NCBI GenBank assembly: GCA_035945995.1
Contig: DASYZR010000021.1
Span: 1-54,939 of the forward strand
DNA: 54,939 nt
Direction of reading: 5' to 3'
Source of the DNA: a bacterium
Lineage (GTDB): Bacteria > Sysuimicrobiota > Sysuimicrobiia > Sysuimicrobiales > Segetimicrobiaceae
The position numbers were made by a program, and so were the translations under genes. Positions 26,387-28,158 of this stretch are shown piece after piece. Position 1 is the stretch's first letter; the number at the start of each line of letters is the position of its first letter. A model generated the notes under the pieces. That model did not search any database, was not told the DNA's origin, and saw only the letters and a program-made list of their open reading frames with translations.

Positions 26387-26662
26387 TCAGCCGCCGGCCA
26401 TCGCCGGGACGATCGACACCTCCGCGCCGTCATCGAGCGGGGTCTCGAGACCGCCGAGGAAGCGGATGTCGCGCTCGTTGACGAAGATGTTCACAAACCG
26501 GAGCACGTCGCCGCGCTCGTCGAGGAGACGCGCGCGGATGCCGGGGAACCGCCGGTCCAACTCGTCGATGGCCTGGGCGAGATCGCCGCCGCCGACTTCG
26601 ACCAGCCGCTCGCCGTTCGTCAACTGGCGCAGCGGTGTGGGGATCCGTACACGAACCGCCAT
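26387..26662 (-). CDS. MoaD/ThiS-like ubiquitin-fold sulfur carrier
   Basis: A 91-residue beta-grasp protein ending in AMAGG. The C-terminal diglycine is the feature that is adenylated by an E1-like enzyme (MoeB/ThiF type) and turned into a thiocarboxylate sulfur donor. Other family marks are the N-terminal [43 protein letters not shown] and [19 protein letters not shown] precedes the ATG. It begins 21 bases after the threonine-synthase-like gene and is clearly in its operon. No molybdopterin or thiamine gene is nearby, so a role with the neighbouring PLP enzyme, as CysO serves CysM in mycobacteria, is more likely than cofactor synthesis. That role is inferred. Confidence 0.9.
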
Positions 26663-26683
26663 AGACGCTCCTCCGCCCGCTTC

Positions 26684-27916
26684 CTAGGCGCCGGCAGGCT
26701 GCAGCACGCGCTCTTCAAAGGACGCGAGCGTCGGCTTGATGCGCACCGGTGCCTGAAGCTGCCCTTCCACGGCCTCGAGCGCTTTGAGCCCGATGCCGGT
26801 GATGTACGCCACCACGGTCTCGTCCGGATCGATGGCGCCGGCCAGCGCCAGCTTCCGCAGCACGCCGACGGTCACCCCGCCGGCCGGCTCCGTGAACAGG
26901 CCTTCGGTTTCCGCGAGCAGCCGGATCGCGTCCACCACCTCGCCGTCGGTCACCGCCTCAACGGCGCCGCCGCTGCGGCGGGCGATGTCCAGGACGTAGG
27001 CCCCGTCCGCCGGACTGCCGATCGCGAGCGACTTCGCGACCGTGTGGGGGACCACCGGGACGACGGTGTCCGTCTCCCCCCGGTACGCCGCGGCGATCGG
27101 CCCGCAGCCCTCGGCCTGCGCGGCCGTCATCCGGATCTGGTGCTCGGGGATCACCCCGAGCCGCTGAAACTCCTCGAACCCCTTGTGGATCTTGACGAAC
27201 ATGTTGCCGGAGCCCACCGGGACGACGACGCGGTCCGGCGCGCGCCAGCCGAGCTGCTCGGCCACCTCGAACGCGAGCGTCTTCGCGCCTTCCGAGTAGT
27301 ACGGCCGGAGGTTCACGTTGGCGATGGCCCACCGATGCTCTTCACCGATCTCCAGGCAGAGCCGGTTGACGTCGTCGTAGGTCCCGTCGACCTCGACGAT
27401 CGTCGGCCGGTAGACCGACGTCGTGACTACCTTCGCATGCTCGAGCCCCGTCGGGATGAACACCACCGCGCGGAGACCGGCCTTGGCCGCGTGGGCGGCG
27501 ACGGCATTCGCCAGGTTGCCCGTGCTCGCGCAGGACAACACGGCGAAGTCGAACGTCCGGGCGGCGGCGAGCGCGACCGCGACGACGCGGTCCTTGAACG
27601 ACCACGTCGGATTCCGGGTGTCGTTCTTCAAGTACAGGTGGTTCAGTCCGAGGGCGCGGCCGAGACGTTCCGCGCGGACGAGCGGCGTGTACCCGGGCGC
27701 CAGGTCCCAGGACGGCACGCGGTCGACCGGCAGGAAATCCTGGTAGCGCCAGATCGAGACCGGACCGGAGAGGATCCGCGTCCGCAGCGCGTCGCCGCTC
27801 GCCCCGCCGTGATCGTACCGGACCTCGAGCGGACCGAAGCACGCCTCGCACACGAAGATCGGATCGAGCGTGTACCGCCGGTCGCACTCGCGACACACCA
27901 GCGCAGTTGCTCCCAT
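26684..27916 (-). CDS. Threonine synthase-like PLP enzyme (SAM-riboswitch controlled)
   Basis: A 410-residue fold-type-II PLP enzyme of the threonine synthase family. An N-terminal zinc ribbon uses C8, C11, C23 and C26. The PLP lysine is K108 in RNPTWSFKDRVV; classical threonine synthases have glycine where this protein has W105. Further motifs are SCASTGNLANAVAA, VPVGSGNMF (phosphate loop), AEGCGPIAAA and TEPAGGVTVG. Threonine synthase converts O-phosphohomoserine to threonine; fold-type-II relatives can instead replace a leaving group with sulfide. The SAM-I riboswitch upstream and the sulfur-carrier gene downstream argue for sulfur metabolism. GGGAGGGGAGAG precedes the ATG. True threonine synthase remains the conservative call. 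Confidence 0.85.
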   Translation of the reverse strand: MGATALVCRECDRRYTLDPIFVCEACFGPLEVRYDHGGASGDALRTRILSGPVSIWRYQDFLPVDRVPSWDLAPGYTPLVRAERLGRALGLNHLYLKNDTRNPTWSFKDRVVAVALAAARTFDFAVLSCASTGNLANAVAAHAAKAGLRAVVFIPTGLEHAKVVTTSVYRPTIVEVDGTYDDVNRLCLEIGEEHRWAIANVNLRPYYSEGAKTLAFEVAEQLGWRAPDRVVVPVGSGNMFVKIHKGFEEFQRLGVIPEHQIRMTAAQAEGCGPIAAAYRGETDTVVPVVPHTVAKSLAIGSPADGAYVLDIARRSGGAVEAVTDGEVVDAIRLLAETEGLFTEPAGGVTVGVLRKLALAGAIDPDETVVAYITGIGLKALEAVEGQLQAPVRIKPTLASFEERVLQPAGA

Positions 27917-27959
27917 CTCTCCCCTCCCACCTGGTTCGCTGCGCCCCGTCGGACGCAAC

Positions 27960-27990
27960 AAAAATCCCCCTCCCAACTCCGAAGGGGGAT
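27960..27990 (-). terminator. Rho-independent terminator of the SAM riboswitch
   Basis: On the minus strand ATCCCCCT (27990-27983) pairs with AGGGGGAT (27971-27964), and the stem runs straight into a tract of five T. It lies 7 bases after the aptamer and 43 bases before the ATG, the standard place for the expression platform of a transcription-attenuating riboswitch. Confidence 0.88.
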
Positions 27991-27996
27991 CACTCC

Positions 27997-28109
27997 CTCT
28001 TATCTACCGGAATTGGATCTTCCGCGGGATTTAGCACCACGCCAGGCGGGAAAACCTGGTAGGCTGCCGGGTGTCATCGGGCCCGTCCCTCGACCACTCT
28101 GGATAAGAG
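27997..28109 (-). promoter_or_regulatory. SAM-I (S-box) riboswitch aptamer
   Basis: The minus strand carries the S-box consensus: P1 strand CTCTTATC (28109-28102), then AGAGTGGTCGAGGGAC, GGGCCCGATGACACCCGGCA, a variable P3 arm containing CCTGG, GTGGTGCTAAATCCCGC, and the closing P1 strand GATAAGAG (28004-27997). The eight-base P1 helix is perfect, and the kink-turn and SAM-binding core are intact. SAM binding would favour the downstream terminator and switch off the threonine-synthase-like gene and whatever is cotranscribed. S-box elements normally control methionine, cysteine and SAM genes, so this target is unusual. Confidence 0.95.
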
Positions 28110-28129
28110 TTGCTATTCAGTTATGACTT

Positions 28130-28158
28130 ACGGTAGCACACACGTCTGTCGGTGTCAA
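28130..28158 (-). promoter_or_regulatory. Promoter of the SAM-riboswitch transcript
   Basis: A consensus TTGACA (28158-28153) is followed after 17 bases by TACCGT (28135-28130) on the minus strand. The predicted transcript start, near 28123, lies about 14 bases before the aptamer. Confidence 0.65.

Follow-up and report, generated by a model that had tools for sequence, protein, structure and literature searches.

SAM-I (S-box) riboswitches are a mark of methionine and SAM genes. In the window, i.e. the whole stretch of 54,939 nucleotides analysed here, such an element precedes a gene for a threonine-synthase-like enzyme and a gene for a small sulfur carrier, which raises the question what this pair makes and why it should be controlled by SAM. 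The original prediction held that the enzyme may use O-phosphohomoserine and a protein thiocarboxylate to make homocysteine, under SAM control and in a genome that also has a canonical thrC. Judged from sequence comparisons, it is highly probable that the locus represents a metM-metO operon under riboswitch control, whose products would form homocysteine from O-phosphohomoserine via the thiocarboxylate of MetO, and which SAM would shut. The MetM/MetO route is not a new pathway, having been published from Streptomyces in 2024, and the locus is an example from a new phylum; the chemistry originally predicted is very probably right, but it was already known.

Organization of the locus

The features of the locus, in the order of transcription, are:

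28130..28158, minus strand: candidate promoter, read by eye (TTGACA 28158-28153, 17 nt spacer, TACCGT 28135-28130)
27997..28109, minus strand: SAM-I (S-box) riboswitch aptamer (Rfam RF00162, 79.2 bits, model positions 1-108 of 108)
27982..28001, minus strand: candidate antiterminator AAGAGGG-agugau-CCCCCUU with 1 mismatch, read by eye and not predicted by a program
27963..27991, minus strand: intrinsic terminator of the expression platform, an 11-pair stem followed by a T tract (terminator scan)
26684..27916, minus strand: metM, threonine-synthase-like fold-type-II PLP enzyme, 410 aa (Pfam PALP 233.6 bits; NCBIfam thrC 294.3 bits)
26387..26662, minus strand: metO, MoaD/ThiS-family sulfur carrier, 91 aa, C-terminal GG (AMAGG; Pfam ThiS 55.2 bits)

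Riboswitch, terminator, metM and metO form one apparent transcription unit, with a gap of 21 bases between the two genes. The aptamer matches the covariance model over its full length, well above the gathering score of 44.4 bits (E 4.6e-17); with its terminator it is no different in structure from the SAM-I riboswitches of RF00162, and only the target operon is unusual. Terminator-like sites number two, compared to 0.4 expected in shuffles. By eye, the candidate antiterminator shares bases with P1 (its 3' strand) and with the terminator (its 5' arm). The candidate promoter has a weak second hexamer and is missed by a stricter consensus scan. Minimum-free-energy folding of the leader gives a z of about 0, which is uninformative because a riboswitch depends on ligand and pseudoknot for its fold, making the covariance model the relevant test.

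The metM protein lies above the NCBIfam thrC cut-off of 167.1 bits and has an N-terminal zinc ribbon (C8/C11/C23/C26) and the PLP lysine K108. Its PLP motif reads NPTW105SFKDR, and all ten canonical threonine synthases compared have G at the position of W105. In the AlphaFold model (pLDDT 89) the nearest folds are threonine synthases, with Foldseek TM-scores of 0.7-0.85, probably owing to domain movement, and rmsd values near 11-13 Å, which were set aside. The enzyme has a PALP domain, not the Cys_Met_Meta_PP domain of MetY, and its best matches are threonine synthases, not the cysteine synthase family. The solved structures nearest to the metO protein are 4n6e_B, a ThiS/MoaD protein, and 3dwg_C, mycobacterial cfp10A/CysO. 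Thus, what had been read from the letters at the outset, i.e. an intact aptamer and terminator before the PLP gene, W105 in place of the classical G, and a MoaD/ThiS gene ending in GG 21 bases downstream, is borne out in each part.

The assembly contains a second copy of metM (88% amino acid identity), together with the beginning of metO, on a contig of 3.3 kb (C162; L018/L030). Its leader of ~243 bases, comprising promoter region, riboswitch and terminator, is 97.5% identical to that in the window, the candidate promoter being the same save one spacer base, whereas identity falls to 83.7% in the coding sequence. Upstream of this copy is a gene for an ISNCY-family transposase, and a truncated helix-turn-helix remnant of a similar type lies upstream in the window (28237-28536, plus strand). 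A recent leader exchange, a duplication and a binned relative would account for the second copy alike.

The enzyme belongs to the MetM family

In a tree of 127 proteins 112 MetM and 15 ThrC are parted by one branch with a support of 100, and the enzyme of the window falls in the MetM clade, membership being judged with MetM from Streptosporangium, Thermocatellispora and Nonomuraea, which stood in for the sequence of the assayed S. albulus MetM. A MetM profile likewise scores ThrC proteins at 289 bits at most and MetM controls at 568 bits or more. MetM-like proteins occur in 37 of the 43 genomes of the phylum, and a scan of 84,980 species yielded at least 589 loci, the best 80 of which come from Chloroflexota, Nitrospirota, Nitrospinota, Aquificota, Actinomycetota, Planctomycetota, Elusimicrobiota and an archaeon.

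Compared to canonical ThrC (2zsj from Aquifex, 1uim from Thermus), the MetM enzyme has the same fold and PLP motif at ~36% identity, but differs in its N-terminal zinc ribbon, its separate clade, its linkage to riboswitch and carrier, and four fixed replacements. These are, with the 2zsj numbering given first, T90 to L135, S157 to N202, N159 to R204 and R162 to Y207, each invariant in 112 of 112 MetM and in 10 of 10 ThrC. All four lie in the pocket region of ThrC, and all four are found in the protein of the window; N190 to S236 and A196 to K242 are nearly invariant separators in addition. The Thermus equivalents of T90, S157 and R162 presumably hold the phosphate of the substrate, and from the alignment the loss of these residues would fit an enzyme that no longer uses the retained phosphate to add water.

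The change from G to W fared differently. It had been proposed as the mark of the MoaD-linked clade, but the position equivalent to W105 is W in 42, H in 31, L in 28, G in 14, F in 10, Y in 5 and N in 1 of the proteins of the family, many of the L cases (Nitrospirota, Aquificota) having a one-residue insertion alongside, and MetM proteins of Acidimicrobiia that do have riboswitch and carrier keep G. The change follows lineage and does not mark the carrier-linked clade, and Leu135, Asn202, Arg204 and Tyr207 separate MetM from ThrC better than W105 does.

The genome has a canonical threonine synthase and a candidate activating enzyme

The source genome, that of an uncultured bacterium, is a 4.15 Mb draft in 181 contigs, 98.8% complete, which was examined by single-family searches; among named taxa Candidatus Segetimicrobium of Ca. 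Sysuimicrobiota is nearest to it, with a MetM 81% identical. A canonical ThrC is encoded on contig C166 in a hom-thrC-thrB-ask operon and is 59% identical to Nonomuraea ThrC and 56% to Priestia thrC, so the second thrC that had been called for is present and metM fills no hom/thrB-linked place among the threonine genes. A third threonine-synthase-like gene (C56) is of the PRK08197 type. The acyl-homoserine route is missing, as neither MetX nor MetA was found by the single-family searches of this 98.8% complete genome. Three Cys_Met_Meta_PP enzymes are present, two above the cystathionine beta-lyase cut-off and one under every cut-off; the Cys/Met-metabolism PLP enzyme on contig C94 was counted against the MetM/MetO reading. 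No SAM riboswitch turned up at the thrC operon, at the E1/MetE region of contig C97 or at the three Cys_Met regions.

An E1-like activating enzyme, also looked for as a consequence of the original prediction, is present as well: the sole full-length ThiF-family match in the genome is an E1-rhodanese enzyme on C97, near core-MetE-like genes. With the canonical thrC, the lack of MetX and MetA, this E1-rhodanese and a separate MoaD-MoaE fusion, the core of the prediction, i.e. SAM-controlled formation of homocysteine from O-phosphohomoserine and a protein thiocarboxylate in a genome with its own canonical thrC, holds at the level of the genome. A JAMM gene was not found with a Caldimicrobium query in the window and the examined parts of its genome.

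Further carriers are encoded elsewhere in the genome. One is ThiS-like (C175); another is CysO-like, shares 56% identity with MetO and lies on contig C65 (L024:281-553, minus strand), where the next reading frame is cut by the contig end. On C97 MoaD is fused to MoaE, separate from metO, which is itself not linked to MoaE. As MoaD is provided by this fusion, the metO product would not be needed for molybdopterin, and its use there is unsupported.

Operon forms in related and distant lineages

In 113 of 129 loci, drawn from many phyla, metO is found no more than 1.2 kb from metM and in the same orientation, and a SAM-I riboswitch is located upstream of metM on the same strand in 40 of the 56 loci scanned with Rfam; hence the arrangement of riboswitch, metM and metO is not due to chance. 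In the family of the window the riboswitch directly precedes metM. Other families of the phylum have a SAM riboswitch followed by thrB-metM(-metO), and two genera (g15, g16) a riboswitch followed by hom-thrB-metM-metO, placing the enzymes that make O-phosphohomoserine under the control of SAM together with MetM. Families f3 and f6 have canonical thrC and metM in one cluster. In families f5 and f7 thrB-metM occurs without metO nearby (L051, L054, L057, L059, L060), with a riboswitch upstream in four of the five.

Within the phylum MetA is restricted to one genus (g11, 4 genomes), all four members of which are missing metM, and it is found in none of the 37 metM genomes; here the riboswitch precedes metY-metA (L147, L198, L199). 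The exclusion is significant (Fisher p 1.2e-4), although a single genus amounts to one evolutionary event. Among 148 Actinomycetes 41 have metM and MetX, 63 metM only, 36 MetX only and 8 neither, a negative association with p 2e-6, uncorrected for kinship. As MetX is thus also present in 41 of 104 metM-bearing Actinomycetes, and in 6 of 41 named metM genomes, MetM is not always the sole route to homocysteine. Independent genomic evidence for substrate and product comes from the operons that include hom and thrB and from the replacement by metY-metA behind the same riboswitch.

In Nitrospirota and in Caldimicrobium (Thermodesulfobacteriota) genes for E1, rhodanese and JAMM proteins accompany metM-metO, JAMM being nearby in some of these loci; CysO/CysM and the HcyS system of Wolinella employ components of these kinds. 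Some MetO frames end in AGGC, AGGA, GGSR or similar instead of GG; here trimming would precede activation.

A gene for a NIL domain (PF09383) is found beside metM in 16 of 17 loci of Nitrospirota and 14 of 19 of Chloroflexota. A riboswitch only is present at 30 loci, NIL only at 28, both at 8 and neither at 14, i.e. NIL largely alternates with the riboswitch, clustered by phylum. Such small genes lie beside metM-metO at L096:6505-6741, L138:6517-6753 and ~35 other loci, mostly without a SAM riboswitch. In the methionine importer MetN the NIL domain binds methionine and acts as a brake. By analogy, the NIL-domain protein may be a methionine sensor at the protein level.

Discussion

MetM is said to have turned O-phosphohomoserine into homocysteine with thiocarboxylated MetO in the hands of Hasebe et al. 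in 2024. Streptomyces MetM is a homocysteine synthase, and S. albulus metM has a SAM riboswitch upstream (Hasebe et al. 2024, Appl Environ Microbiol 90:e01247-24, doi 10.1128/aem.01247-24, as cited in PMC12172450). As far as that account goes, the locus described here shares with the Streptomyces system the threonine-synthase-like enzyme, the adjacent carrier, the upstream SAM riboswitch and, very probably, the O-phosphohomoserine route. It differs in that it belongs to Candidatus Sysuimicrobiota, with relatives in many phyla, in that the riboswitch operon of its relatives adds thrB and sometimes hom, and in the second metM of the genome.

Two other systems are related in chemistry. Like mycobacterial CysO/CysM, MetM/MetO would pass the thiocarboxylate of a carrier to a fold-type-II PLP enzyme, with a MoeZ-like E1-rhodanese as activator and JAMM in some lineages; MetM, however, would have a substrate and a product one carbon longer, and it descends from ThrC, not from cysteine synthase. 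The Wolinella system of Krishnamoorthy and Begley, dating from 2011, reportedly comprises carrier, E1 and JAMM parts. There HcyS, HcyD and HcyF act with MetY as a known thiocarboxylate system (Krishnamoorthy and Begley 2011, ref. 34 of PMC5764234), alike in that a protein thiocarboxylate serves for homocysteine, but with MetY, of fold type I, acting on O-acetylhomoserine, whereas here a ThrC relative would act on O-phosphohomoserine.

We infer the reaction, the sulfur donor and the regulatory response as follows. The E1-rhodanese enzyme of C97 would adenylate the Gly-Gly end of MetO and convert it to a thiocarboxylate. MetM would bind O-phosphohomoserine made by ThrB, eliminate phosphate and attach the sulfur of MetO to the gamma carbon rather than water to the beta carbon, so that homocysteine would result after release from the carrier and would be methylated by the core-MetE-like enzymes on C97. 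When SAM is abundant, the riboswitch would end transcription before metM, leaving phosphohomoserine to the separate canonical ThrC.

Would the enzyme rather be an ordinary or moonlighting threonine synthase/deaminase, with the MoaD gene as an unrelated neighbour? Its score above the NCBIfam thrC cut-off and its nearest folds would agree with this, and so would a cyanobacterial homologue that shares 51.6% identity with S. albulus MetM, has a carrier gene next to it and gave threonine and 2-oxobutyrate and no clear homocysteine in vitro, the carrier gene being likened to S. albulus metO (both as reported in PMC12172450). In view of this threonine synthase/deaminase activity, function within the MetM family still needs tests. 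For the enzyme of the window we nevertheless regard the idea as very unlikely, since a canonical ThrC is encoded in the hom-thrC-thrB-ask operon and families f3 and f6 even hold both genes in one cluster, metM is under SAM riboswitches, of which the thrC operon showed none, metO follows metM in many phyla, and the four pocket-region residues are replaced in every MetM. A different objection concerns the sulfur donor: free sulfide might be the main donor of MetM in vivo, with MetO only improving the reaction or serving another step. The thrB-metM operons without an adjacent metO point in this direction, but in nearly all other loci the carrier gene adjoins metM, often together with E1 and in some lineages with JAMM, and this objection is thus unlikely to hold.

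The pair could also make cysteine from O-phosphoserine or O-acetylserine in the manner of CysO/CysM, given that the carrier's nearest solved relatives include mycobacterial CysO and that CysM is of fold type II too. This is highly improbable, as threonine synthases are much nearer to the enzyme than cysteine synthases are, the genes that share its operon in relatives are hom and thrB and none for serine, its riboswitch type marks methionine and SAM genes, and another CysO-like carrier is available on C65. Finally, membership of the carrier in the MoaD/ThiS family would suit a role in molybdopterin synthesis or tRNA thiolation, its place behind the riboswitch being incidental; with the MoaD-MoaE fusion and the ThiS-like carrier encoded in the same genome and with metM and metO linked across phyla, such a role is exceedingly improbable. 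Homocysteine formation by MetM and MetO accordingly remains the preferred reading.

Beyond the locus, we put forward tentatively, and with more doubt than confidence in the whole, that metM operons use interchangeable product sensors, i.e. either the SAM riboswitch or, in Nitrospirota and many Chloroflexota, a methionine-binding NIL protein encoded beside or between metM and metO that would brake MetM directly, that lineages with riboswitch-hom-thrB-metM-metO might maintain a separate supply of phosphohomoserine for methionine, and that MetM might be the missing homocysteine route of Aquifex and Acidimicrobium.

Price et al. (PMC5764234) stated that the homocysteine pathway of Aquifex, Pyrolobus and Acidimicrobium must be an unknown one. 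MetM occurs in Aquificota-labelled genomes (L064, L066, L074, L081, L106) and in Acidimicrobiia, among the best 80 of at least 589 loci or in the tree, which renders this gap directly testable. Moreover, as the NCBIfam thrC model takes the MetM of the window for a threonine synthase, many genomes probably look like methionine auxotrophs but are not.
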